The position numbers and the translations under genes were made by a program. A stretch of DNA of 24,902 bases. Source: a virus. The stretch's first letter is position 1. Every line of letters begins with the position of its first letter. Location: positions 1 to 24,902 of the IMG/VR virus record IMGVR_UViG_3300030331_001159; one strand, written 5' to 3'. Below are positions 384-14,410 of this stretch, piece by piece. The notes under the pieces were generated by a model that was not told where the DNA came from, did not search any database, and worked only from the letters and a program-made list of their open reading frames with translations.

Positions 384-686
384 ATGGCTGTTCGTAAGAA
401 AAAGAAGGGCATGGGCATAAAGTCTAGTGTTAAGTCTGGAAACTTTAGACCGACTAGACAAGGTGCTGGTATGACAGCTAAAGGTGTGGCTGCTTACCGT
501 CGTGCTAATCCTGGTTCTAAACTAAAAACTGCTGTTACAGGTAAAGTCGCAAAAGGTAGCAAAGCTGCCAAAAGAAGAAAGTCATTTTGTGCACGATCTG
601 CGGGTCAAGCCAAAATGCATAATATTAACTGTCGAAAGACACCAAACAAAAGAATTTGTCAAGCAAGAAGGAGATGGAAATGTTAG
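384..686 (+). CDS. Lys/Arg-rich Cys protein, orphan marine phage family (100 aa)
   Basis: About 31 of 100 residues are Lys or Arg. The N-terminus is MAVRKKKKGMGIK. The middle carries GMTAKGVAAYRRANPG, and the C-terminal third has KSFCARSAGQ and ends in RRRWKC, with four Cys in the last 35 residues (KSFC, NINC, RIC, WKC). From memory this KSFCAR...RRxWKC pattern recurs in small proteins of marine phages and belongs near the DUF6321-type group; the domain number was not checked. The Cys spacing could bind a metal. A role in coating or condensing packaged DNA is only a guess from charge and from its position near head genes. A good Shine-Dalgarno for the next gene lies inside its 3' end. Confidence 0.72.
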   Translation: MAVRKKKKGMGIKSSVKSGNFRPTRQGAGMTAKGVAAYRRANPGSKLKTAVTGKVAKGSKAAKRRKSFCARSAGQAKMHNINCRKTPNKRICQARRRWKC

Positions 687-799
687 ACATGAGTATGATA
701 TGGGAAAAAATAAAAGAAAAAGTTAAGTGCACTACGTGTAATAGACACTGGTATATTATAGCAGCTGTAGCGGTAGTCGCTTGGTGTTGGATTTGGTAA
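680..799 (+). CDS. CxxC membrane microprotein (39 aa)
   Basis: This short gene overlaps the previous one (ATG 680, previous stop 684-686) and is preceded by a strong AAGGAGA at 668-674. It encodes an amphipathic charged N-terminus (WEKIKEKVK), a CTTC motif at residues 17-20, and a single C-terminal hydrophobic segment (about residues 24-39, WYIIAAVAVVAWCWIW) that runs to the stop. It ends 1 base before the ATG of the next small membrane protein, so the two are probably translated together. Similar tiny single-span proteins occur in marine phages. A role in lysis is possible but unproven. Confidence 0.7.
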   Translation: MLDMSMIWEKIKEKVKCTTCNRHWYIIAAVAVVAWCWIW

Positions 800-800
800 C

Positions 801-1022
801 ATGACCAACAAAGAATTAACTGATATTAAACTTGAATTGACTAGACACATAGAACGTGAGCAACAATTGCGTGAAGATGTGTCTGAGTTAAAAACAGATA
901 TGGGTTGTGTTAAACGATCTATCTTTCAAGTTAAATGGTTAGTTATAGGAGCTGTGTGTGCCACTGTTGTTATGCAATCAGGGGCATCAACAGTTATTGC
1001 AAAGATATTAGTAGGTATTTAA
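801..1022 (+). CDS. Coiled-coil plus single membrane span protein, XhlA/holin-like (73 aa)
   Basis: Residues 1-40 form a charged heptad-like helix (ELTDIKLELTRHIEREQQL) and residues about 45-70 a hydrophobic span (WLVIGAVCATVVMQSG). This layout, a short coiled coil followed by one C-terminal transmembrane helix, is that of the XhlA/BhlA haemolysin-like phage lysis accessory proteins. It suggests a holin or holin partner. No endolysin is visible in the window to support a lysis cassette. The gene starts 1 base after the stop of the CxxC membrane microprotein and its TAA is almost contiguous with the next GTG start, so it is part of the coupled small-gene chain. Confidence 0.62.
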   Translation: MTNKELTDIKLELTRHIEREQQLREDVSELKTDMGCVKRSIFQVKWLVIGAVCATVVMQSGASTVIAKILVGI

Positions 1023-1023
1023 T

Positions 1024-1179
1024 GTGGCAATAAGTCGTGCTAATATAAAACAACAGGTAACGAAAGGACCACAAAAGAAAAAGTGGACCAGAAAGTACAA
1101 AAAGTCTATTAACTGTAAAAACCCAAAAGGTTTTTCACAACGAGCACATTGTGCTGGTAGAAAGAAAAGAGGTAGATAA
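1024..1179 (+). CDS. Basic two-Cys microprotein (51 aa, GTG start)
   Basis: Read from GTG 1024 directly after the previous TAA (1020-1022), it encodes MAISRANIKQQVTKG, a KKKWTRKYKK basic stretch, then INCKNPKGFSQRAHCAGRKK and a short basic tail. The last block, C-x11-C within a Lys/Arg-rich context, is one I recall as strongly conserved in small marine phage proteins, which supports the reading despite the short length and non-ATG start. The stop TAA overlaps the next ATG (TAATG). Metal binding through the two Cys and one His is conceivable. No function is known. Confidence 0.72.
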   Translation: MAISRANIKQQVTKGPQKKKWTRKYKKSINCKNPKGFSQRAHCAGRKKRGR

Positions 1180-1304
1180 TGCAAGTAACAAAAAACGTAA
1201 TAAGGTTTAATAAGTTAATGATAAAGATTCCACAAGATACAAAAAGAGTGTGGGATTTATCAGAGAATCGATGGGGGTATAAATATGACAAAGTTATGTC
1301 CTAG
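1179..1304 (+). CDS. Microprotein of unknown function (41 aa)
   Basis: The ATG at 1179 overlaps the upstream stop (TAATG). The product reads MQVTKNVIRFNKLMIKIPQD, then a segment containing KRVWDLSENRWGY, and ends at TAG 1302-1304, about 20 bases inside the following gene. The aromatic and basic make-up, the coupled start and the fully used space between neighbours argue that it is real. There is no recognisable domain. It could be a leader that couples translation of the next gene, whose start lies inside it. Confidence 0.5.
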   Translation: MQVTKNVIRFNKLMIKIPQDTKRVWDLSENRWGYKYDKVMS

Positions 1305-1539
1305 AGGTAAAGCTGCTGCCAAACGTAAGTTCGCAGTCTATCCAAGTGCTTATGCAAATGCCTATGCATCAAAGATTTGTGCGGGTAAAATAAAAGATCC
1401 TAGTGGTAAAAAGAGAAAAGATTTTAAAGGACCAAAGCCTAGAAAAGCTGGAGGAGGCACTATTAAATTAAACGGTGGTGGAAAGGTTGCTCGTGGTTGT
1501 GGTATAGTAAAAAGAAAGAAGAAAACTAAATACAGATAA
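1285..1539 (+). CDS. Lys-rich Cys protein with GGGK motif, orphan family (84 aa)
   Basis: The start ATG 1285 follows GGGGG at 1272-1276. The N-terminal half reads LCPRGKAAAKRKFAVYPSAY and continues into a second Ala/Tyr-rich stretch ending KICAGKIKDP. From memory this is a widespread small marine phage family. The C-terminal half is Lys/Gly-rich with AGGGTIKLNGGGKVARGCG, so it also contains the GG-K motif seen in several other proteins of this window. There are three Cys in total (residue 5, one in KIC, one in RGC). The function is unknown; packaging with the genome or a scaffold role is speculation. Confidence 0.75.
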   Translation: MTKLCPRGKAAAKRKFAVYPSAYANAYASKICAGKIKDPSGKKRKDFKGPKPRKAGGGTIKLNGGGKVARGCGIVKRKKKTKYR

Positions 1540-1540
1540 C

Positions 1541-1639
1541 ATGACTAAAAAAAACTATTATACACAAAGAGAATGGGACAGAGTTGTTGGTTATGGAAAA
1601 GTTCCAAAAGAATATAAGTTAAAAAAACATCATGGCTAA
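1541..1639 (+). CDS. Microprotein (32 aa), translationally coupled
   Basis: It begins 1 base after the preceding stop and encodes MTKKNYYTQREWDRVVGYGK followed by VPKEYKLKKHHG. Its last 8 bases overlap the start of the next gene in another frame. The YTxxEWxxVVGxGKVP pattern looks like small basic phage proteins I have seen, and the gene exactly fills an otherwise unexplained 92-base gap. There is no identifiable domain, and short length limits certainty. Confidence 0.55.
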   Translation: MTKKNYYTQREWDRVVGYGKVPKEYKLKKHHG

Positions 1640-1907
1640 AAAAGGTTTAAAAACATGGTTCAAAGAAAACTGGGTAGATATATCTACAGGTAAAAAGTGT
1701 GGCCGTAAATCAGCTAAATCATCAAAAAGAAAGTATCCAGTCTGTCGTCCAAAGGCAGTAGCTGATAGAATGACAGCAGGTCAGAAAGCTGCGGCTGTTA
1801 GAAGAAAAAGAGCCAAGACTAACGTAGGTCCAAAGCCTACATCTATTCGTTATCCTATTAGTGCGAGTGGACGTAAACAGAAGGTTAAAACTAAACGAAG
1901 GAGATAG
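1632..1907 (+). CDS. Highly basic two-Cys protein, DUF6321-like (91 aa)
   Basis: 31 of 91 residues are Lys or Arg. The N-terminal half reads LKTWFKENWVDIST, then GKKCGRKSA and KRKYPVCRPKA (two Cys), followed by MTAGQKAAAVRRKRAK. From memory, WFKxNWVDI with CGR and KYPxCxP is the signature of a small family common in algal viruses and marine phages, near DUF6321; this was not checked by search. A compact Cys-based fold that binds nucleic acid would fit the charge. The extreme C-terminus is a run of basic residues. The 3' end provides the Shine-Dalgarno (1898-1904) for the next gene. Confidence 0.75.
   Translation: MAKKGLKTWFKENWVDISTGKKCGRKSAKSSKRKYPVCRPKAVADRMTAGQKAAAVRRKRAKTNVGPKPTSIRYPISASGRKQKVKTKRRR
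1898..1904 (+). promoter_or_regulatory. Strong ribosome-binding site
   Basis: AAGGAGA, 9 bases before ATG 1914. It is the best Shine-Dalgarno in the first 2 kb and fixes that start. Confidence 0.75.
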
Positions 1908-1913
1908 ACGACG

Positions 1914-2372
1914 ATGATTGATCCATTGACAGCTTTTGCAGCATTAAAAACTGCAAGTTCGGCTATATCCTCTGCCGTAAAAGCTGGTAGAGATTTAGGA
2001 TCTCTCGTTGGTCCTATCACAAAACTAGCAAAAGCAGAAGCTGATTTAAGCTTTGCAGCAGAAAAGAAGGGTGGTATACTTGGGAAATTGACGGGAGCTG
2101 AGCAGACAGCAATTGAAGCTCACTTTCGGAAAGAGGAGGCCAAACGTATTCGTGATGAAATGCGTGAATTGTTTTTATTGTTTGGCTCTCCTGGACAGTG
2201 GGAAAGACTACAAGGTGAAATTGCTAACGAAAGATCTCGTCGAAAGAAAGCTCTTGAAGAATTAGCAGCAAAGAAACGTCGACTCAAAAATACAATTATT
2301 ATAACTGTATCTATTGTGGCGGCGGTGATAATATTAACATTTGAAATCATGTACTTAAAAGGAGCACTATAA
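1914..2372 (+). CDS. Helical phage protein with C-terminal membrane anchor (152 aa)
   Basis: The start is well set by AAGGAGA at 1898-1904, 9 bases upstream. The N-terminus, MIDPLTAFAALKTA with an Ala/Ser-rich helix, is one I associate with a common phage virion-associated family. The middle is strongly helical and charged, with GSPGQWERLQGEIANERS then a Lys/Arg/Glu coiled coil. Residues about 126-150 form a single hydrophobic helix (IIITVSIVAAVIILTFEIMY). A C-terminal span is not obvious in the family members I recall, so this one may sit in the host membrane. Possible roles include a lysis or superinfection factor, or a virion protein; none is proven. Confidence 0.68.
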   Translation: MIDPLTAFAALKTASSAISSAVKAGRDLGSLVGPITKLAKAEADLSFAAEKKGGILGKLTGAEQTAIEAHFRKEEAKRIRDEMRELFLLFGSPGQWERLQGEIANERSRRKKALEELAAKKRRLKNTIIITVSIVAAVIILTFEIMYLKGAL

Positions 2373-2373
2373 A

Positions 2374-3006
2374 ATGGTAATGATAAAAAACAGAAAGACA
2401 GTGAAGGGTAAGTTAGGTAGCACTAGACCAAAAGATACCGACTTTGCTGGTATAGCAAGAAAACAAAGTAGAAAGAAAAAGACTACAACTAAAAGTAATA
2501 GACCTACTGATGCTAGAACTAAAGCTCTTAGAACAGCTTTAAAAGAGAAACAGAAACTAGCGGGTAAAGGATTAGGTCAAGCTGGTCAAGCATTCTTAGG
2601 AGGATCTGCAAAACAGACACCAGTTTCTCCAAAGAAAAAACCAACAGGTAGGCCTGGTGGAAAGATGAGTAGGCCTGCTGCTAAATCACCACCTAAACGA
2701 AGACGTGGCTTTGGTTTTACATCCAGAACAGGACCAATTAAATTAAAACCAAGATTTGCTGGTGGTGGTAAGACTTCTAAATATCGCATGGCCGGAGGAG
2801 GTAAGACTTCTAAATACCGTATGGCCGGTGGTGGGAAGACCTCCAAGTATCGTATGGCTGGGGGTGGAAAGACTTCTAAATATCGTATGGCTGGGGGTGG
2901 TAAAACATCTAAGTACAGAATGAAGGGTGGAGGTAAGACATCTAAGTATATGGCTAAAGGTGGTAAAACTTCCAAGTACATGAGACGAGGCGGCAAGGTT
3001 AAGTAG
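2374..3006 (+). CDS. Basic protein with C-terminal GGKTSKY repeats (210 aa)
   Basis: The start ATG 2374 follows AAAAGGAG (2357-2364). Residues 1-128 are disordered-looking and Lys/Arg/Pro-rich (KQSRKKKTTTKSNRP; KSPPKRRRGFGF). From residue 129 come five exact copies of an 11-residue unit, AGGGKTSKYRM, then two 10-residue variants (KGGGKTSKYM, AKGGKTSKYM) and a tail RRGGKVK. The heptapeptide GGKTSKY is kept in all seven. Low-complexity basic GGK-repeat proteins are seen in marine phages, but their role is unknown; DNA binding, RNA binding or a docking scaffold are all possible. The stop TAG overlaps the GTG start of the next gene (TAGTG). Confidence 0.78.
   Translation: MVMIKNRKTVKGKLGSTRPKDTDFAGIARKQSRKKKTTTKSNRPTDARTKALRTALKEKQKLAGKGLGQAGQAFLGGSAKQTPVSPKKKPTGRPGGKMSRPAAKSPPKRRRGFGFTSRTGPIKLKPRFAGGGKTSKYRMAGGGKTSKYRMAGGGKTSKYRMAGGGKTSKYRMAGGGKTSKYRMKGGGKTSKYMAKGGKTSKYMRRGGKVK
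2758..2982 (+). repeat. Tandem 33-bp (then 30-bp) coding repeats
   Basis: Seven in-frame units: five of 33 bp (2758-2922) and two of 30 bp (2923-2952, 2953-2982). The protein unit is invariant in the first five, but the DNA differs at many third positions (Gly as GGT/GGA/GGG, Thr as ACT/ACC/ACA, Lys as AAA/AAG, Arg as CGC/CGT/AGA). The array is therefore old and kept by selection on the protein rather than freshly duplicated. Confidence 0.9.
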
Positions 3007-3680
3007 TGGCATATACAATTTCTAACATCCCACACTTTAAGTGTTGGGTGAGGAAAGAGTTCACACATAACCACGAGAAATACCAAGGAGAGTTTCTCCA
3101 TGCTTTGGCTTTTGCAGTGTGCACTATCCCAGACCGTTGTTTAAGTTTTCAAGTTGTGTTTACAGGATGTGGCGAAGATCACCCTAATCCTCACGGTGGA
3201 GCTATGTGGGCACGTATACCAATAACGTCTTTAGTGGGGGACACACCGTTTGATGAATGGCCACCAAACATACAGACTCATTTAGCCCAACCATGGGATT
3301 GCTCCAGTCGTAATCATGCCATCATCAGAATGGACAGAATTAGTTCAAGTCCGTGGTTGTGTAAGATAGCAGGTGAGTTCTATAATGGTAAGTATATGTT
3401 TACGGTTGACTATACCGACAGTTATATATCAGATGATCCAGCACAACATAAACAATCACATGTGTTGGAATTGACATCGGGTCCGTATAAAGGTTGTATA
3501 GTGGCATTACCAAACAATCGTGTACGTGTAACCAACCCTGCGCTATGGGCAGTTGGAGAAGGACCACCAGACTTTGTGCCGTCACAGTGGGAACACTCCG
3601 CAGAACAACACGATAGTTATATGGACTGGGAAACAACATTTGATAACCTATATGAATGGGGAAAGGATAAGAAAAAATGA
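3006..3680 (+). CDS. Conserved orphan marine phage protein (224 aa)
   Basis: It starts at GTG 3006, overlapping the upstream TAG (TAGTG), and reads MAYTISNIPHFKCWVRKEFT. It is rich in Trp, His, Cys and Pro. Notable segments are NPHGGAMWARIPITSLVGDT, QPWDCSSRNHAI, WLCKIAGEFYNGKY, FTVDYTDSYISDDPAQHKQS and GCIVALPNNRVRVTNPALW. From memory this protein is very well conserved in uncultured marine phages while having no assigned function. The many conserved His/Cys/Asp positions could suggest an enzyme or metal-binding protein, but no known catalytic motif is recognised. Its GC (about 46% over 3061-3360, hand-counted) is higher than flanking genes. It overlaps the next gene by ATGA. Confidence 0.8.
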   Translation: MAYTISNIPHFKCWVRKEFTHNHEKYQGEFLHALAFAVCTIPDRCLSFQVVFTGCGEDHPNPHGGAMWARIPITSLVGDTPFDEWPPNIQTHLAQPWDCSSRNHAIIRMDRISSSPWLCKIAGEFYNGKYMFTVDYTDSYISDDPAQHKQSHVLELTSGPYKGCIVALPNNRVRVTNPALWAVGEGPPDFVPSQWEHSAEQHDSYMDWETTFDNLYEWGKDKKK

Positions 3681-3835
3681 AATTAACAGATCTTAGTGGA
3701 GATGGAAAAGTAACTCAAAAGGACAAACTTATTGGTGCCGGTGTTTTGGACAAGGACGGTAATAAAGTTAAGAAAAAGTTTTTTAATGGTGGTAAAGTAC
3801 ATGCATCATTTGGAACTGACTTCGACGATAGGTAA
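3677..3835 (+). CDS. EF-hand/dockerin-like microprotein with GGKV motif (52 aa)
   Basis: The ATG overlaps the upstream TGA (ATGA). Residues 5-16, DLSGDGKVTQKD, match the 12-residue EF-hand/dockerin calcium loop at positions 1, 3, 5, 6, 8, 9 and 12 (D, S, D, G, V, T, D). The next segment reads KLIGAGVLDKDGNKVKKKFF, followed by NGGKV and a short acidic end. A single loop is unusual, so binding might need a dimer. The GGKV motif recurs in the larger virion-associated proteins downstream. I recall similar DGKVTxxDxLIGxGV microproteins in marine phages. Function unknown. Confidence 0.72.
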   Translation: MKLTDLSGDGKVTQKDKLIGAGVLDKDGNKVKKKFFNGGKVHASFGTDFDDR

Positions 3836-3840
3836 ATATT

Positions 3841-3951
3841 ATGGATAATAAAAAAGTACGTAAAATTATTAGTGGTTTAAAAAAAGCATCAAAGCTACAT
3901 GCTTCTCAGGCTAAACAACTTGAGGGCATGTTAAAACAAAAGAAGAAATAG
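3841..3951 (+). CDS. Basic helical microprotein (36 aa)
   Basis: This 36-codon gene fits exactly between the EF-hand-like microprotein and the first adaptor, whose ATG follows its TAG directly. It encodes MDNKKVRKIISGLKKASKLH then ASQAKQLEGMLKQKKK, which is one amphipathic basic helix. I recall the pattern KIIxGLKxASxxHAxQAxxLE in small proteins at this point of related phage genomes, which supports it as real. It may be a small assembly or scaffold factor for the head-tail connector; this is inferred from position only. Confidence 0.68.
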   Translation: MDNKKVRKIISGLKKASKLHASQAKQLEGMLKQKKK

Positions 3952-4644
3952 ATGGCAACTTCAGGTACAACAACATTCAATCTCGATATAGCTGATGTAA
4001 TTGAAGAAGCCATGGCTATGTTAGGTGGTGAGCAAACTCTAGGGTTTGAACCGTTAGAGGCACGTCGCACACTTAACCTTCTTCTTATCGATTGGATGAA
4101 CCGTGGTATATTACTTTGGAAACAAAACTTAGCCACATTGGATATAACAAGTGGCACAGCTGAATATACATTACCAACTTCACTTATAGATATAACTGAA
4201 TTAGTTCACAGAACAGTCAGTGGTTCAACAACCACAGACTTAGCTTTAGAACGTATTACTATGGAAGCTTATCAAAGAATTACAAACAAGACACAAACGG
4301 GTAGACCAACACAGTATGCTATCAATAGATTAAGAGATGCAGCTGAATTATATTTATGGCCTACACCTGATACCACAACTTCAAGTGGCACACCTATATT
4401 ATCATATTTCAGCTTTAACAGAGTTGAAGATATAACAAAGTCCGATCAAGATCCTGATGTTCCTTTTAGATTCTTACCATGTTTAGCTACCGGCTTAGCT
4501 TATAAAATGTCTATCAAAAGACCAGGCATTACATCCGAAAGAGCCAGTATGTTAAAACAAATGTACGAAGAAGAATTAACATCAGCAATGTATGCAGATA
4601 AAGAAAGAGCTAGTCTTTTGATTAAGCCATCGTTTAGGTTATAA
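3952..4644 (+). CDS. Head-tail adaptor-like protein, P22 gp4/T7 gp11 type (230 aa)
   Basis: The protein starts with an alpha-helical bundle region (DVIEEAMAMLGGEQTLGFEP, EARRTLNLLLIDWMNRGILL). A beta-rich insert follows (TSGTAEYTLPTSLIDITEL, LYLWPTPDT), then a C-terminal helical pair (PFRFLPCLATGLAYKMSIKR, MLKQMYEEELTSAM). This helix-bundle, beta-insert, helix order and the length are those of podovirus adaptor rings that sit under the portal (P22 gp4, T7 gp11 tail tubular A). The role would be joining the portal to the tail nozzle. The assignment is by architecture and by the nearby second adaptor and nozzle genes. Its TAA overlaps the next ATG. Confidence 0.68.
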   Translation: MATSGTTTFNLDIADVIEEAMAMLGGEQTLGFEPLEARRTLNLLLIDWMNRGILLWKQNLATLDITSGTAEYTLPTSLIDITELVHRTVSGSTTTDLALERITMEAYQRITNKTQTGRPTQYAINRLRDAAELYLWPTPDTTTSSGTPILSYFSFNRVEDITKSDQDPDVPFRFLPCLATGLAYKMSIKRPGITSERASMLKQMYEEELTSAMYADKERASLLIKPSFRL

Positions 4645-7967: not shown

Positions 7968-8237
7968 ATGGTATTTCAAAATAATGTTCTTTCAGGTGCT
8001 GGTGGATCAGGCACAACCGTATATGAAATAGACCAATCAATAAGATTTAATGAAGCTGATAGTCCATATATGCAAAAAACATATAGTGGAGACGGAAGTC
8101 GTACGACTTGGTCATTTAGTTTTTGGACAAAGCTAGGTAAATCACCACCTTATAATTCAACAAGAGGTAATTTTTTAATTGCTTATAATACTACTAGTGG
8201 TGCGCAAGAAGAATGTATATTAATGGTCAAAGAGTAA
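7968..8237 (+). CDS. 5' part of a split LamG-SPRY fibre gene (89 aa, broken)
   Basis: After a short anchor, residues from about 22 read SIRFNEADSPYMQKTYSGDG and TTWSFSFWTK, the first strands of a LamG/concanavalin-type domain. They are paralogous to FNDGDSPYMRR...TISFWVK in the 787-aa protein downstream. The reading then stops at 8235-8237 (ECILMVKE), while the continuation of the same domain resumes in another frame from 8198-8213. The expected middle strands (about 45 residues compared with the paralogue) are missing. The likeliest explanation is an internal deletion that also shifted the frame, in the phage or in assembly. It is best read together with the next feature. Confidence 0.65.
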   Translation: MVFQNNVLSGAGGSGTTVYEIDQSIRFNEADSPYMQKTYSGDGSRTTWSFSFWTKLGKSPPYNSTRGNFLIAYNTTSGAQEECILMVKE

Positions 8238-9235
8238 CTGACTTTGCTACTGAAACATATCCATCACAAAGTGCTGAAGGTCATGTAGGAAAGAGTGCAG
8301 ATGTACATTACATTGGCAGTAGAGGTGGTAATTCCAATACACGAATTGATGGTTATATGGCTGAAATACATTATTTAGATGGTCTAGCTTATGACCCTAG
8401 TTTCTTCGGCGAGTTTAATAATTCTGGAATCTGGATAGCAAAAGAATACACTGGCAGTTATGGAACAAATGGATTTAAAATTGATGGCAGAGATGCATCT
8501 GACTTAGGAGATGACGAATCAGGTAATGGTAATGATTTCACCTCATATAATCTTGCAGCACATGACCAAGTTAGTGACTCACCTTCCAATAATTTTTGTG
8601 TAATGAGTCCTATTGATTTTACCTATAATACAATTAAAAATGGAAATTTAGAAACTATTGGTGGTAATAACAATAAAGGTGGTAGAGGTACTATGGGATT
8701 TACCAGTGGTAAATTTTATTGGGAAATGTTAGCTACAACACTGTCTGATAGATATCCAGGTAGTGGTGTGGTGTATGACGAATATGCATCTAGTATGCCT
8801 ACTGCATATGCTGGAGGTGGCACTAATCATGGTGCAGGAGCATCACACAATGGAGCCAAATGGTATAAACAAAGCACATCAGGAACACAGTATGGAAGTC
8901 ATCCATCTAGTGGAGACATTTATATGTATGCATTAGATAGAGATAATAATAAAATATTTTGGGGTGTTAATGGCACTTGGAGAAATAGTGGTGACCCAGC
9001 TAATGGAACTGGAGCAGTGGCTTCTAGTTTAACACATTATGGGGCATGGATGCCTTTTGTAAATCATGGTTCAAATGCTGGTGCTTCAGCATCTACCTTT
9101 AATTTTGGACAAGATGGAACTTTTGCTGGAGCTAAAACAGCTCAAGGTAATAGTGATGGTAATGGAGTTGGTAATTTTTACTATAGTGTTCCAAGTGGGT
9201 ACTTAGCACTTTGCACAAAGAATTTAGGGAGTTAA
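8213..9235 (+). CDS. 3' part of the split LamG-SPRY fibre gene (340 aa)
   Basis: This frame is open from about 8198. It continues the LamG domain with YINGQRVTDFATETYPSQ, the DGYMAEIHYLDGLAYDP strand and YGTNGFKIDGRDASDLGDDE, all of which align with the 787-aa neighbour (LYVDGDLMTSFATSTYPPQ, DGYLAEVNLVDGTALTPD). From residue about 160 a SPRY-like domain follows (GKFYWEM, IYMYALDRDNNKIFWGVNGT, FNFGQDGTFAG) and it ends with VPSGYLALCTKNL. There is no good Shine-Dalgarno before ATG 8213, so independent translation is doubtful. As part of an intact gene it would be a receptor-binding or glycan-binding fibre. Confidence 0.65.
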   Translation: MYINGQRVTDFATETYPSQSAEGHVGKSADVHYIGSRGGNSNTRIDGYMAEIHYLDGLAYDPSFFGEFNNSGIWIAKEYTGSYGTNGFKIDGRDASDLGDDESGNGNDFTSYNLAAHDQVSDSPSNNFCVMSPIDFTYNTIKNGNLETIGGNNNKGGRGTMGFTSGKFYWEMLATTLSDRYPGSGVVYDEYASSMPTAYAGGGTNHGAGASHNGAKWYKQSTSGTQYGSHPSSGDIYMYALDRDNNKIFWGVNGTWRNSGDPANGTGAVASSLTHYGAWMPFVNHGSNAGASASTFNFGQDGTFAGAKTAQGNSDGNGVGNFYYSVPSGYLALCTKNLGS

Positions 9236-9236
9236 T

Positions 9237-11600
9237 ATGGCAGCACCAACAATACCAAATGGCGAAACACAGTTCTTCCCGATCATCTACGAAGGCGACG
9301 GAAAAGGCCAGAGGGTCGGTAAGTTCGTACCTTTTACAGACAATGGTACTATTGCTAATAGTTTGATATTTAATGATGGAGATAGTCCATATATGAGACG
9401 AACACCTTCAGGAGCTAGTAATCGTAAAACTTTTACCATAAGTTTTTGGGTAAAAAGATGTCAATCAGGAGTACTTCAACTAATAATTGCACAAGGTGCA
9501 GATCACAATAATTCTAGTACTATAGCATTTTCTTCTTCTGATCAACTACGCTTTGGACATAATGATAGTGGTTCAACAACTTATGCTTTAATAACAAACA
9601 GAACATTTGAAGATACCTCTAAATTTTATCATATACTTGCATCTTTTGACACCACTCAATCAACAGCATCAGATAGAGTAAAATTGTATGTTGATGGTGA
9701 TTTAATGACTTCCTTTGCAACATCTACTTATCCACCACAAGATTTTGATTTGGATTTTAATTCTACAGGAACTATTGCAATAAGTGGTCAAATTCCATCT
9801 GGAACTTTATTTCCTTTTGATGGATATCTGGCTGAAGTTAATCTCGTGGATGGCACAGCACTAACACCTGACACTTTTGGACTTACGAACACATCAACTG
9901 GCAGATGGATCCCCAAAGCATTAACAGGTATTACTTATGGAACTAATGGTTTTAGATTAAAGTTTCAAGACAGCTCAGCACTTGGTGATGATACCAGTGG
10001 TAACACAAATGATTTCGGTACGGTAAATGGTCTTGTAGCTGGAGACCAGACCACCGATAGTCCGACACAGAATCATGCGACACTTGAAGATGGTGGAAAT
10101 GGAGGAACTTTATCTGAAGGTAATTTAAAACTAGCTACCACAACAAGTCAATATAATATTAAATGTGCAACATTAAGACCAAAATCAGGAAAATATTATG
10201 CAGAATTTAAACAAATAAATTCTGGTGGAAGACCGAATGTTGGAGTTGCTTTATCTGATAATATGCCTTATTCAGGCACAAATGTTTTTACACCAGTTAC
10301 ACCAGTTTCTAGTAATATACCAGGATATGGATATTATGGTTATAATGGTATAATTTATACCTCGTTAGATGGAGGTCCTACTTTTACTACTGTTAATAGC
10401 ACAGGAACTACTTATGCACAAAATGATATAATAGGTATTGCATTAGATTTAGATACACCACAAGTAAGTTTTTATAAAAATAATTCTTTAGTTATTACTT
10501 TGAGTCTTCCAAGTGGTTCAAATGGTTATTCATATTTTGTTGGAGATACTGCTGCTGGTTATAGTGCGACTTGGGAATGTAACTTTGGTCAAAAATCTTT
10601 CGCCTACACCCCACCAACTGGCTTTGTGGCTTTACAACAAGACAACTTGCCAGAGACTGCAAAAGGCATAACTGGGTTTACTTGGATTAAAGATAGAGAC
10701 AATGCACTTAATCATAATAGTTATGATAGTAGTAATGGTGTATTTAATAGATTAGTTCCAAATAATAACTCTACCATACTTAATACTCAAAGTGGTGTTT
10801 CAAAATTTTTAAAAGGTGGTATCGCTGTTGGTGATTTATCTAATATAAATAATAGTGGTGCATCTATGGTGTCTTGGAACTGGGTAGCAAATGGAGGGGT
10901 CACTAGCACCAACAATGATGGTTCAATTAGCTCAACTGTTCAGGTAAATTCTGATGCTGGGTTTAGTATTGTGCAAGGTAAATATTTTCAGGGCACTATG
11001 GGACACGGGTTATCACAAACTCCCGAATGGATTATTTACAAAGAAACTTCACCTAATGCAAATAGTTGGTATGTTTGGCATAAAGGTTTAACATCAACAA
11101 CTTATTATTTGTTATTCGATTCAACTCAAGCTCAAACTAATTATGGTGCTACATTATGGGCACCAACATCAACTACTTTTTCAACTAATTTATCATTATC
11201 AGGAGATAGAGATGCTATTGCCTATTGTTGGCACGGAGTAGATGGTTTTAGTAAATTTGGTAGATACGAAGGAAATGCTAACTCAAATGGTCCGTTTGTG
11301 TACTTAGGATTCCGACCAGCTTTTTTAATGATAAAAAATGCAGATAGGAGTGTTGACTGGATTATTATTGATAGTAAAAGAGACCCTTTTAATGATGGTG
11401 TGAGTAAATTACTAAAACCAAGTTCTAGTGCTGCTGAATCTGAAGCTAATAATCAAGGTATAGACCTTTTAAGTAATGGTTTTAAAATTAGACAATCATC
11501 ATCTAATGCTTTTAATGCTAGTTCAGAAACTCATATCTACATGGCATTTGCTGAACATCCATTCGTTGGGGACGGAACGAGTCCTGTAACTGCGAGATAG
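9237..11600 (+). CDS. Large receptor-binding fibre: LamG + SPRY + DUF7483-like C-terminus (787 aa)
   Basis: The N-terminus reads IPNGETQFFPIIYEGDGKGQ, a conserved anchor. Residues about 40-240 are a LamG-type domain (DSPYMRRTPSGA, TISFWVK, KFYHILASFDTTQ, VKLYVDGDLMTSF, DGYLAEVNLVDGTAL). Residues about 290-470 are SPRY-like (GKYYAEFKQIN, IIGIALDLDTPQVSFYKNNS, CNFGQKSFAYTPPTGFVALQ). The C-terminal about 240 residues (GFSIVQGKYFQGTMGHGLSQ, DAIAYCWHGVDGFSKFG, YLGFRPAFLMIKNAD, IYMAFAEHPFVGDGTSPVTA) match the phage fibre domain I know as DUF7483. It probably binds a surface glycan. The ends are GC-richer than the middle, suggesting domain swapping. Confidence 0.82.
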   Translation: MAAPTIPNGETQFFPIIYEGDGKGQRVGKFVPFTDNGTIANSLIFNDGDSPYMRRTPSGASNRKTFTISFWVKRCQSGVLQLIIAQGADHNNSSTIAFSSSDQLRFGHNDSGSTTYALITNRTFEDTSKFYHILASFDTTQSTASDRVKLYVDGDLMTSFATSTYPPQDFDLDFNSTGTIAISGQIPSGTLFPFDGYLAEVNLVDGTALTPDTFGLTNTSTGRWIPKALTGITYGTNGFRLKFQDSSALGDDTSGNTNDFGTVNGLVAGDQTTDSPTQNHATLEDGGNGGTLSEGNLKLATTTSQYNIKCATLRPKSGKYYAEFKQINSGGRPNVGVALSDNMPYSGTNVFTPVTPVSSNIPGYGYYGYNGIIYTSLDGGPTFTTVNSTGTTYAQNDIIGIALDLDTPQVSFYKNNSLVITLSLPSGSNGYSYFVGDTAAGYSATWECNFGQKSFAYTPPTGFVALQQDNLPETAKGITGFTWIKDRDNALNHNSYDSSNGVFNRLVPNNNSTILNTQSGVSKFLKGGIAVGDLSNINNSGASMVSWNWVANGGVTSTNNDGSISSTVQVNSDAGFSIVQGKYFQGTMGHGLSQTPEWIIYKETSPNANSWYVWHKGLTSTTYYLLFDSTQAQTNYGATLWAPTSTTFSTNLSLSGDRDAIAYCWHGVDGFSKFGRYEGNANSNGPFVYLGFRPAFLMIKNADRSVDWIIIDSKRDPFNDGVSKLLKPSSSAAESEANNQGIDLLSNGFKIRQSSSNAFNASSETHIYMAFAEHPFVGDGTSPVTAR

Positions 11601-12267: not shown

Positions 12268-14112
12268 ATGTCCACCGATACAATTCTATTTGATGTAAAT
12301 TTCAGACCGGGGATAGACAGAGAGTCTACACAATATGCCTCCAAAGGTGGGTGGTATAATGGTGACAAAGTACGGTTTCGTGCTGGTAAACCAGAAAACA
12401 TTCGTGGTTATGAGAAAAGAGTACAAGAAGAATTTATAGGAACAGGTCGTTCAGCACATTCATTTACAAGTAACGATGCTCTAAAATATCATTCCTTTGG
12501 TACACCTAGTCACTTATATATCTATGCCGGTGGTAAAAATTTTGATATTACACCATTACGAACATCAACAACATCGAGTGTTACCTACAAAACAGTAGCC
12601 TCTAGCACTCGCATACTTGTATCATCTACAAGTCATGGAGCTAATGTTGGTGATTATTTTATTCTCGTATCGTCAGCTACCGTGGGCGGTAATCATAGAT
12701 TTTTAAACAGTCAGTTTGAGGTTGTATCAGCTACATCTAATAATTTTACATTCAATACAACAGTAGCTTCATCGGCAACCACAACAATAACAACACGATC
12801 TAAGTTTCAATTCTATATACACTCAGGTGGGTCACAAAATATTCCTGAACTTGGTTGGGGTGTTGGGGTTTATAATGCTGGTGTTTCAATTACCGGAGCC
12901 AGAGCATGGAATAGTCCTGCAAGTATATCTGGTGATACACAAACACAGCCACTACGACAATGGGCACTTGACAACTTTGGCGAAGATTTATTAGCTTTAC
13001 CACGAGAGGGTAAATTACATGTATGGGAAGAATCAGACGGTACCGGTACAAGAGCTGTGGTTGTTCCAACAGCTCCAAGTGCATCCAACTTTATGTTTGT
13101 ATCACAACAAGATAGACACGTTATTTGTTTAGGCACACATGGTGTAGCCAGTGGTTTTGATCCAATGTTAGTTAGATGGTCAGACCAAAATGATTATACA
13201 AATTGGAATGTTAATGTTAGTAGCACATCGGGTGAAAACCAACTGGGTGACGGTAGCGAATTAATAACTGGACTTAACACTCGTAACCAATCATTAATCT
13301 GGACGGACAATGCTGTACATGCTATGGAGTTTGTTGGTCCACCGTTTATATTTAACTTTAGACAATTAGGTTCTAACTGTGGTATAGCTGGGCAACATGC
13401 AGCTATAGAACTTGACGGTCGTATATTCTGGATGGGTGCAAAAGATTTCTTTGTATATGATGGTGCTGTTAAAGCATTACCGTGTACAGTTCGTCGTTAT
13501 GTTTACGATGATTTTAACTTTGATCAAAAAGAAAAAGTATATGCTGGTACAAACCAAGAATTTAGAGAAGTAACATGGTTGTATCCAAGTAGAAATTCTA
13601 CAGAGGTGGATCGATATGTAAGTTATAATCCTGTTGAAAACTATTGGACATTTGGTACAACTATATTTACAACATGGGAAGATAAAGAAGTATTTCAAAA
13701 CGTGATAACAACTGGTCAAGAAGCAGACGGCGATAACTATTTATATACAAACGAACCCGAAGGTATTTATACAGCCGATGGTCAGAGACAAGAAGCATTT
13801 CTTGAATCATCAGAATTTGATACAACTCCGCCATCGTATGGACCAGGAGATAGCATTATGTACTTGGATAGAATCGTTCCAGACTTTACAATAAATGATG
13901 GTGGTCGTGTTACTTTAAATATGAAACTTAAAAACTTTCCAAACGGAGAGATTAGAGAAAAGGGACCATTTTTTGTAACACCGACAACACAATTTATAAG
14001 AACACGTGCTCGTAGTCGTCAAGCTATTATTCGTATCTCGACATCTACGGGTGGAACTAACTGGCGACTAGGATCTTTTAGAATGGATGTAACACAAGAT
14101 GGCAAAAGATAA
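12268..14112 (+). CDS. Tail nozzle/hub protein, P22 gp10/T7 gp12-like (614 aa)
   Basis: The N-terminus reads LFDVNFRPGIDRESTQYASK, GGWYNGDKVRFRAGKPENIR and GYEKR, a signature I link to phage packaged-DNA-stabilisation/nozzle proteins. The long beta-rich middle shows propeller-like blades (LRQWALDNFGEDLLALPREG, FDPMLVRWSDQNDYTNW, LITGLNTRNQSLIWTDNAVH, GRIFWMGAKDFFVYDGAVKA). The C-terminus is beta-rich with RTRARSRQAIIRIS. Its length and place after the adaptor genes fit a protein closing the tail tube below the adaptors. The ribosome-binding site is AAAGGTGGAGAG just before ATG 12268. It overlaps the next gene by 14 bases. Confidence 0.75.
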   Translation: MSTDTILFDVNFRPGIDRESTQYASKGGWYNGDKVRFRAGKPENIRGYEKRVQEEFIGTGRSAHSFTSNDALKYHSFGTPSHLYIYAGGKNFDITPLRTSTTSSVTYKTVASSTRILVSSTSHGANVGDYFILVSSATVGGNHRFLNSQFEVVSATSNNFTFNTTVASSATTTITTRSKFQFYIHSGGSQNIPELGWGVGVYNAGVSITGARAWNSPASISGDTQTQPLRQWALDNFGEDLLALPREGKLHVWEESDGTGTRAVVVPTAPSASNFMFVSQQDRHVICLGTHGVASGFDPMLVRWSDQNDYTNWNVNVSSTSGENQLGDGSELITGLNTRNQSLIWTDNAVHAMEFVGPPFIFNFRQLGSNCGIAGQHAAIELDGRIFWMGAKDFFVYDGAVKALPCTVRRYVYDDFNFDQKEKVYAGTNQEFREVTWLYPSRNSTEVDRYVSYNPVENYWTFGTTIFTTWEDKEVFQNVITTGQEADGDNYLYTNEPEGIYTADGQRQEAFLESSEFDTTPPSYGPGDSIMYLDRIVPDFTINDGGRVTLNMKLKNFPNGEIREKGPFFVTPTTQFIRTRARSRQAIIRISTSTGGTNWRLGSFRMDVTQDGKR

Positions 14113-14410
14113 CAGAAGAATACCAAGAAAAAAAGGACAGCCAGTCGGTAGTAAAAAACACTCTGATTTATATACCGATGAGAATCCAAAAGGCACAATA
14201 CGTGGTTTAAAATTTACAACAGTTGCAGACGCTAGAGCTTCGGTGGCTAAGATAAAAAGATCAGGTCGTAGTCATGCCCATAAAACACAGGCTGCGATTG
14301 CTATGGAACAACGAGCTAGAGTTGCAGGTAAAAGTAAACAAGCTGCTGTGTATAGAGCTTTTATAAATCAACAAAAGAAAAAGACAAAACAAAAAAGGAG
14401 TGTAGCATAA
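14099..14410 (+). CDS. Basic orphan protein with SKKHSDLYTDENPKGT motif (103 aa)
   Basis: It overlaps the nozzle gene by 14 bases. The N-terminal basic arm MAKDNRRIPRKKGQPVG is followed by SKKHSDLYTDENPKGTIRGL, a helix TTVADARASVAKIKRSG, and SHAHKTQAAIAMEQRARVAG, ending with YRAFINQQKKKTKQK. From memory this whole pattern, HSDLYTDExPKGTIxGLxF...SGRSHAHKxQAAIAMEQRA, is strongly conserved in marine phages and giant-virus-type genomes with no known function. The double His (SHAHK) and the charge may bind nucleic acid or metal. It is a separate basic protein far from the first cassette. Confidence 0.74.
   Translation: MAKDNRRIPRKKGQPVGSKKHSDLYTDENPKGTIRGLKFTTVADARASVAKIKRSGRSHAHKTQAAIAMEQRARVAGKSKQAAVYRAFINQQKKKTKQKRSVA

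Follow-up and report, generated by a model that had tools for sequence, protein, structure and literature searches.

A chain of small basic phage genes recurs as fused modules in T4-like phages and probably serves the virus head

We analyzed a chain of thirteen genes in IMGVR_UViG_3300030331_001159, an IMG/VR virus record 24,902 bases long that was taken whole as the window and is apparently a tailed-phage fragment. The genes occupy positions 384-3951 on the same strand, lie back to back with overlaps of at most 20 nucleotides (nt) and gaps of at most 6 nt, and have as neighbors a small gene at 99 on one side and the SU10-type adaptor gene at 3952 on the other (Table 1); each is referred to here by the position of its start. 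An earlier sequence-only reading had described such a chain of small genes, and all the open reading frames (ORFs) that it named are present at the starts it gave. It had also singled out four Lys/Arg-rich proteins containing Cys, and their composition bears this out, with Lys plus Arg counts of 31/100 in 384, 18/51 in 1024, 27/84 in 1285 and 31/91 in 1632 (31-35%; the two counts that the reading gave, 31/100 and 31/91, were exact), 4, 2, 3 and 2 Cys in the same order, isoelectric points of 10.8-12.0 and scarce acidic residues (0, 0, 2 and 3). Three further proteins are very basic and lack Cys: 2374 (63/210 Lys/Arg), 3841 (12/36) and the distant 14099 (28/103), the last a stand-alone gene 10 kb from the rest of the set in the window genome. 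Coupling through TAATG and ATGA overlaps, as proposed for the chain, holds at 1179 (TAATG) and 3677 (ATGA); 3006 has TAGTG, and elsewhere the genes either overlap further (by 7 nt at 680, by 20 nt at 1285 and by 8 nt at 1632) or are separated by gaps of 0-6 nt.

Table 1. Genes of the chain, its downstream border and the distant basic gene (aa, amino acids; K/R, Lys plus Arg; dN/dS, ratio of nonsynonymous to synonymous substitution rates)
Position	Strand	Feature	Basis or remark
384..686	+	DUF6321 module, 100 aa, 31% K/R, no D/E, 4 Cys, Cys final	predicted helices 32-41, 60-78, 90-97
680..799	+	39-aa protein, hydrophobic C-terminal segment, 3 Cys; start within stop region of 384	membrane segment predicted from sequence alone
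801..1022	+	73-aa protein, charged N-terminus, then hydrophobic segment	no family match below E 0.02; in 29/29 relatives
1024..1179	+	51-aa module, GTG start, 35% K/R, 2 Cys	core KYKKSI.C.NPKGFSQ.AHC also in T4-like cyanophages
1179..1304	+	41-aa syntenic microprotein, no family	family searches, relatives
1285..1539	+	84-aa PSAYAN module (phrog_27331), 32% K/R	Cys pair at open end of predicted helical hairpin, helices 6-15, 22-32, low-confidence model
1541..1639	+	32-aa basic microprotein	21/29 relatives
1632..1907	+	91-aa module resembling DUF5872 (phrog_23735), 34% K/R	Cys pair in every ungapped row
1914..2372	+	152-aa protein, C-terminal hydrophobic segment (phrog_32327), syntenic	family match, relatives
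2374..3006	+	210-aa basic protein, ~8 GGKTSKY repeats, 30% K/R	weaker constraint, dN/dS 0.45
3006..3680	+	224-aa acidic protein, strongly conserved (phrog_3704)	homolog immediately after DUF6321 gene in HTVC023P
3677..3835	+	52-aa protein with calcium-loop-like DLSGDGKVTQKD stretch	resemblance by sequence only; dN/dS 0.66, weak
3841..3951	+	36-aa basic microprotein	9/29 relatives
3952..4644	+	SU10-type head-tail adaptor, chain boundary	PF24175, E 1.9e-14
14099..14410	+	103-aa basic protein outside the range of the sequence-only reading	same module opens fused protein of S-SM2 (73% identity), Bellamy (72%)

Relatives of the locus were fetched through the adaptor, a marker outside the gene set, and the close set was defined by an adaptor >80% identical and enough upstream DNA (29 loci with 25 distinct upstream sequences). 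Gene order was kept in all 29 loci. Genes 801, 1914 and 2374 were present throughout, 3006 in 28 loci, 384, 1285, 1632 and 3677 in 27, 680 and 1024 in 26, 1179 in 24, 1541 in 21 and 3841 in just 9. Median pairwise dN/dS by Nei-Gojobori comparison was 0.05-0.31 in 11 of the 13 chain genes (3006, 0.05; 384, 680 and 1632, 0.08; 801, 0.11; 1179, 0.12; 1285, 0.15; 1914, 0.18; 1541, 0.24; 3841, 0.27; 1024, 0.31), with 0.06 in the adaptor as comparison, and stood at 0.45 in 2374 (9 distinct sequences) and at 0.66 in 3677, a weak value that probably reflects mixed paralogs. Neither lost synteny nor missing purifying selection, the two outcomes that the sequence-only reading took as speaking against its proposal, was seen among these close relatives. 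The GGKTSKY repeats of 2374 are in frame and encoded by differing codons, and the protein ranges from 146 to 229 aa among aligned relatives. At one relative of the window, locus L127, ~3 kb of inserted DNA separates the 801 gene from the 1024 gene, and neither 1285 nor 1632 has a match at that locus.

The chain had been described as made of orphan proteins. This was incorrect for 384, a member of the Pfam family DUF6321 (PF19846; E 7.7e-15, 55.7 bits against a curated cut-off of 28.5), to which four cyanophage proteins ending in the same module match at 40.8-79.5 bits. It was too strong for 1285, 1632 and 1914, which have PHROG families; 384 and 3006 have PHROG families as well, and none of the five carries a trusted function. 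The match of 1632 to DUF5872 (PF19197) covers residues 3-44 only and, at 25.7 bits, falls under the cut-off of 27.5, leaving 1632 outside that family. Pfam names both DUF6321 and DUF5872 as families of unknown function. The match of 3006 to phrog_3704 brings the label 'ferredoxin' with no other support, and a PDB sequence search with 3006 gave no match; its family is also annotated 'PurM' in HTVC023P (L002:7376-8020), and neither label is backed by a Pfam match for the window protein. Searches by name in the papers available returned nothing for 'DUF6321' and, for 'DUF5872', only a table row for an algal virus, and they revealed no prior account of this gene set as judged on titles and abstract openings.

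Beyond these close relatives, at least two of the modules occur as separate genes or open frames in the pelagiphages HTVC027P, HTVC023P and HTVC106P, in phages 023Pt_psg01 and C75C1 and in the freshwater phage DSL-LC04, and a DUF6321 gene is carried by HTVC100P and HTVC010P. P-SCSP2, a T7-like Prochlorococcus phage, encodes between its scaffold and major capsid genes members of the 1285 type (E 3e-10) and of the 1632 type (E 4e-5), one gene of the 384 type (32% identity by alignment) and two genes matched by eye to 3677 and 3841. We also collected loci anchored on 1285, keeping the best 80 of 568 viral loci. The 1632 type was found in 79 of the 80, at a median of 312 bases from 1285, followed by the types of 384 (42), 14099 (39), 1914 (39), 3841 (19), 3677 (9) and 1024 (3); of the 21 loci that extend at least 2.5 kb to each side, 1632 was present in 21, 384 in 17 and 14099 in 9. 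The surrounding genes were identified with context markers from ten reference phages and the window only, so missed markers are likely. Counting the adaptor, 61 of the 80 loci hold a head or connector marker, and 17 hold no marker of any kind; a capsid, scaffold or cement marker was present in 20, one of these or portal in 36, portal in 24 and adaptor in 32. A cellular origin was considered for 59 loci from genome_contigs, whose titles name metagenome-assembled, single-cell or environmental genomes from many phyla, single cells of Pelagibacteraceae among them, and was rejected; these loci were taken as presumed phage contigs.

In T4-like cyanophages the same modules are strung together in one polypeptide. 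The 609-aa gp206 of S-SRM01 contains the modules in the order 1024-1632-1285-384, as do S-CAM9 and S-PRM1; S-SM2 and Bellamy fuse 14099-1632-1285-384 and carry 1024 in the gene immediately before, and S-SCSM1 and ACG-2014f fuse 1632-1285-384. To these examples we added a survey of 160 environmental loci, for which the DUF6321 ends of S-SM2 and of MA01 served as queries (best 80 each), together with 13 named-record loci; the contigs are of presumed phage type, and some repeat named phages. Among the 171 DUF6321-bearing ORFs in the survey, 99 carry at least two modules, arranged as 1632-1285-384 (55), 1024-1632-1285-384 (17), 14099-1632-1285-384 (12) or other combinations (15). DUF6321 is alone in 72 ORFs, 12 of which run off the locus start, and sits at the extreme C-terminus in 155 of the 171. 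In S-SRM01, S-B68, S-SM2, Bellamy, ACG-2014f and S-CREM2 the gene has the small terminase gene on one side and the large one on the other. It comes after the small terminase subunit in MA01, S-PRM1 and S-CAM9, where no large subunit is visible, and upstream of the large subunit in S-SCSM1. The S-SM2 chain (L173:4093-6219) also has a DUF192 domain (E 3.6e-24), and S-SRM01 gp206 has DUF5661.

Proteins that are separate in some genomes and fused in others are classically taken to share a job, which the sequence-only reading had proposed from the tight coupling of the genes. Homologous modules occur in podoviruses and in T4-like phages and are linked by both fusion and neighborhood: they share one polypeptide in many T4-like phages and are neighboring genes in several kinds of podovirus. 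The proposal had extended to the membrane microproteins, and for 680, 801 and 1914 the synteny holds, with no evidence that they do the same job. The modules are very common in aquatic phages, with at least 600 matches in each of three viral scans and 418 and 487 phage records matching at least part of a fused protein, and nearly all listed module records are labeled 'hypothetical'.

The search for these proteins in virions covered S-CREM2, S-SCSM1 and S-SM1 and left out S-SZBM1, which also has a virion mass spectrometry (MS) table. The whole record of S-CREM2 holds one DUF6321 place (ORF137) and one place each for 1285 and 1632, both in ORF160 (128342-129235); at E 0.01 it shows no place of the 1024 or 14099 type. 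Cesium chloride (CsCl)-purified virions of this phage are reported to contain 52 proteins, including ORF137 (4 unique peptides) and ORF160 (7 unique peptides, 13.1% coverage) (PMC10665884 Table 3). With 52 of ~221 annotated features detected, the chance of finding two of two module ORFs is ~0.055. In S-SCSM1 all three types fall within gp029, which its record labels 'virion protein'; MS of CsCl-purified virions gave 45 virion proteins, and the portion of that source available does not name gp029 (PMC9602691). The S-B68 counterpart of ORF160 carries the label 'structural protein'.

ORF160 also contains a copy of the N-terminal arm of the capsid protein. Its residues 21-44 align to positions 61-84 in the major capsid protein of S-CREM2 with a score of 95, whereas none of 1000 shuffles exceeded 48, and the aligned capsid stretch lies just behind L54-T55-E56, the expected site of the prohead-protease cut. 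The S-B68 and MA01 counterparts share this copy, and in all three proteins this stretch matches phrog_696, 'major head protein' (E 4.8e-10 to 7.6e-11). Further small ORFs with a capsid-like arm, G(F/Y).G...GP.AG(F/Y)DPV, were seen at four DUF6321-anchored loci (L188, L192, L247 and L248). A role in the virion or its assembly, one of the jobs suggested from the sequence, gains support from the MS of cyanophage homologs, the S-SCSM1 record label and the capsid-arm copy in one homolog.

The T4 prohead protease gp21 cuts after L/I-x-E (PMC9026906), and we looked for this motif in the 12 aa before module starts, using 188 distinct boundary windows from 74 non-redundant fused proteins. [IL]xE was present in 71 of the 188, compared to 30.0±4.2 in shuffled sequence, and its mirror Ex[IL] in 32 compared to 30.3±4.5; with [ILV]xE the counts were 122 versus 50.9±5.4, and 62 versus 50.4±5.2 for the mirror. 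A looser [IL]xE count in 15-residue windows gave 81/196 versus 36.6±4.2, and the density of [IL]xE per 100 positions was 3.19 at boundaries, 1.11 in other linker and 0.28 within modules. Because the boundary windows are not phylogenetically independent, we regard this enrichment as suggestive of T4-type cleavage before the modules.

The cysteines of the modules are kept or lost in pairs. Four-position patterns in 259 distinct DUF6321 sequences were CxxC in 154, which lack the middle pair, and CCCC in 85, which have it whole; the other 20 comprised nine C-xC, one xxxC and ten with gaps. The 126 sequences of the 1285 type carry their pair at columns 4/31 (45) or 7/30 (63), never mixed, with 15 lacking a pair and 3 gapped, and the pair is kept in all ungapped rows of the 1632 (186/186) and 1024 (43/43) types. 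Except for the one xxxC row, no filled row splits a pair. Trees of 111 and 42 rows contain only 4 and 2 pattern changes, numbers at which a sign test cannot reach significance, and the paired Cys fit a disulfide staple with few independent changes. A zinc finger at the C4 site of 384 was rejected: since most DUF6321 sequences are CxxC and the 1632, 1024 and 1285 types have single pairs, a C4 metal site is not the common design.

We favor the reading, with a probability of roughly 0.53, that these proteins are head-associated basic virion modules with a role like that of the internal proteins of T4, encoded by separate genes in the window and as a probable polyprotein in T4-like phages. The kit would consist of 384, 1024, 1285, 1632 and 14099, and probably 2374 and 3841. 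Because relatives are detected in purified particles and the modules are strung together elsewhere, the kit probably helps to build or load the virus head. The modules would enter the head during assembly and lie against the inner shell or the DNA, with their positive charge binding packaged DNA; the window's own versions would also be in the virion, and in the head instead of the tail. In T4-like phages gp21 would cut the fused chain into modules, so that the gene chain and the fused chain would yield the same products, and the paired Cys would close as disulfides, locking the helical hairpins after the particle has left the reducing interior of the cell.

A more elaborate version is tentative and, in our estimate, somewhat unlikely: T4-like marine phages would produce a polyprotein of disulfide-stapled DNA-binding mini-proteins, a sister chain would be anchored to the shell in some of them by the capsid-arm copy, both would be cut by the prohead protease inside the head, and podoviruses, the window's phage among them, would make the same products from tiny genes. 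Were this polyprotein version true, the modules would form a common and previously unrecognized layer that condenses and anchors in the heads of aquatic phages, and oxidation after release and reduction on entry would switch it.

Several observations weigh against a head-internal kit. Where the adaptor is 44-45% identical, none of the seven loci with sufficient upstream DNA holds the chain upstream (tblastn), and 3 of them have 1024/1285/1632-type genes downstream instead. At three loci outside this count, with adaptors in the same identity range and short upstream DNA (L158-L160), 1285- and 1632-type genes lie upstream in a different order, and in two of them the 384 type is upstream too. From these distant adaptors together with the synteny and dN/dS of the close set, the chain is under selection and syntenic within its own clade and rearranged beyond it. 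The head or connector context of the 1285-anchored loci includes 25 of 61 that rest on the adaptor, the head-tail connector, and have none of the capsid, scaffold, cement and portal markers. An endolysin is close to the modules in several pelagiphages. ORF137 coverage in S-CREM2 virions is 4.1% only, and its peptide positions are not in the portion of the source available (PMC10665884); the fused gene of S-SM1 is labeled 'hypothetical protein' although virions of this phage were analyzed by MS (PMC3037559); S-SCSM1 gp029 shows no capsid arm; and no virion data were found for phages with the modules as separate genes. Cleavage is deduced from motifs in the non-independent boundary windows described above. 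Structure adds little: the model of 384 has a predicted local distance difference test score (pLDDT) of 72.6 with no PDB match by Foldseek, the single PDB match of 384 by sequence has E 0.29 so that no solved structure was matched, and the model of 1285 is weak (mean pLDDT 58.7).

The modules could instead be structural parts of the portal-neck-tail axis. The chain adjoins the SU10-type adaptor gene, adaptor (32) and portal (24) markers are found at more of the 80 loci than capsid, scaffold or cement markers (20), and S-CREM2 MS places the proteins in the virion, not specifically in the head. We nevertheless consider this unlikely, as the shell is indicated by the capsid-arm copy that ORF160 and its counterparts in S-B68 and MA01 carry, the P-SCSP2 set lies between scaffold and major capsid genes, and the fused gene lies between the terminase subunits in six T4-like records.

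Also improbable is that these are late, unpackaged proteins for host takeover or anti-defense, or effectors packaged mainly for the next host in the manner of polyvalent proteins. Small basic Cys proteins with variable membership would suit such a role, T4 packages the effectors IPI and Alt (PMC9026906), phages commonly have multidomain proteins that are injected (PMC5512222), and DUF192 or DUF5661 accompanies the modules in the S-SM2 and S-SRM01 chains. The unpackaged version conflicts with the homologs reported in virions by MS and by the S-SCSM1 label, and Pfam and PHROG scans found no enzymatic domain in the window's modules. The packaged-effector version may still hold. A lysis cassette, in which holin- or spanin-like membrane microproteins would act with basic helpers, would explain the hydrophobic segments of 680, 801 and 1914 and the M15 endolysin that is a near neighbor in HTVC023P, HTVC100P, HTVC106P and HTVC010P. 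This we judge very unlikely: M15, the sole endolysin type sought, occurs at 4 of the 80 loci (3 of them also with a head marker) versus 36 of 80 for portal, capsid, scaffold or cement, the small proteins of the window, including these three, have no lysis-family match in Pfam or PHROG, and basic-module proteins are reported in cyanophage virions.

Elsewhere in the window, two overlapping ORFs in different frames, 7968-8237 and 8213-9235, resemble by eye the start and the remainder of the protein encoded at 9237, and 7968-8237 looks like a shifted or shortened copy of the 9237 gene.

A kit of head-associated modules can be compared with several known systems. The ejection proteins of the giant phages phiKZ and SPN3US are packaged in the head, as proposed for the kit, and for some of them the prohead protease cleaves behind a short motif whose last residue is E; judged by their description and not by sequence, they are not basic Cys-paired mini-modules (PMC5694885). 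Polyvalent proteins also combine several unlike domains in one packaged polypeptide and were likened by their authors to polyproteins, but they are rich in enzymatic domains and have processing by a zincin-like metallopeptidase; the word 'cyanophage' is absent from the main text of that source (PMC5512222). Three fused proteins, ORF137 and ORF160 show at most DUF6321 with DUF192 or DUF5661, and no peptidase above cut-off, which sets them apart from polyvalent proteins. The internal proteins IPI, IPII and IPIII of T4 resemble the kit in being small, basic and poorly conserved among relatives; they are taken into the prohead and then cleaved by gp21 after L/I-x-E (PMC9026906), and the modules would likewise be packaged and, where fused, cleaved. 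Pfam and PHROG matches of the modules do not name these proteins, and no internal-protein sequence was compared directly. The T4 proteins differ in being separate genes with an N-terminal targeting peptide, whereas the kit is fused in T4-like phages, has paired Cys and is also found in podoviruses. Linked to the virion through fusion, neighborhood and proteomics already at hand, a whole class of genes of unknown function gains one job that can be tested, and identical parts encoded as a gene chain in some phages and as a fused chain in others provide a natural comparison.

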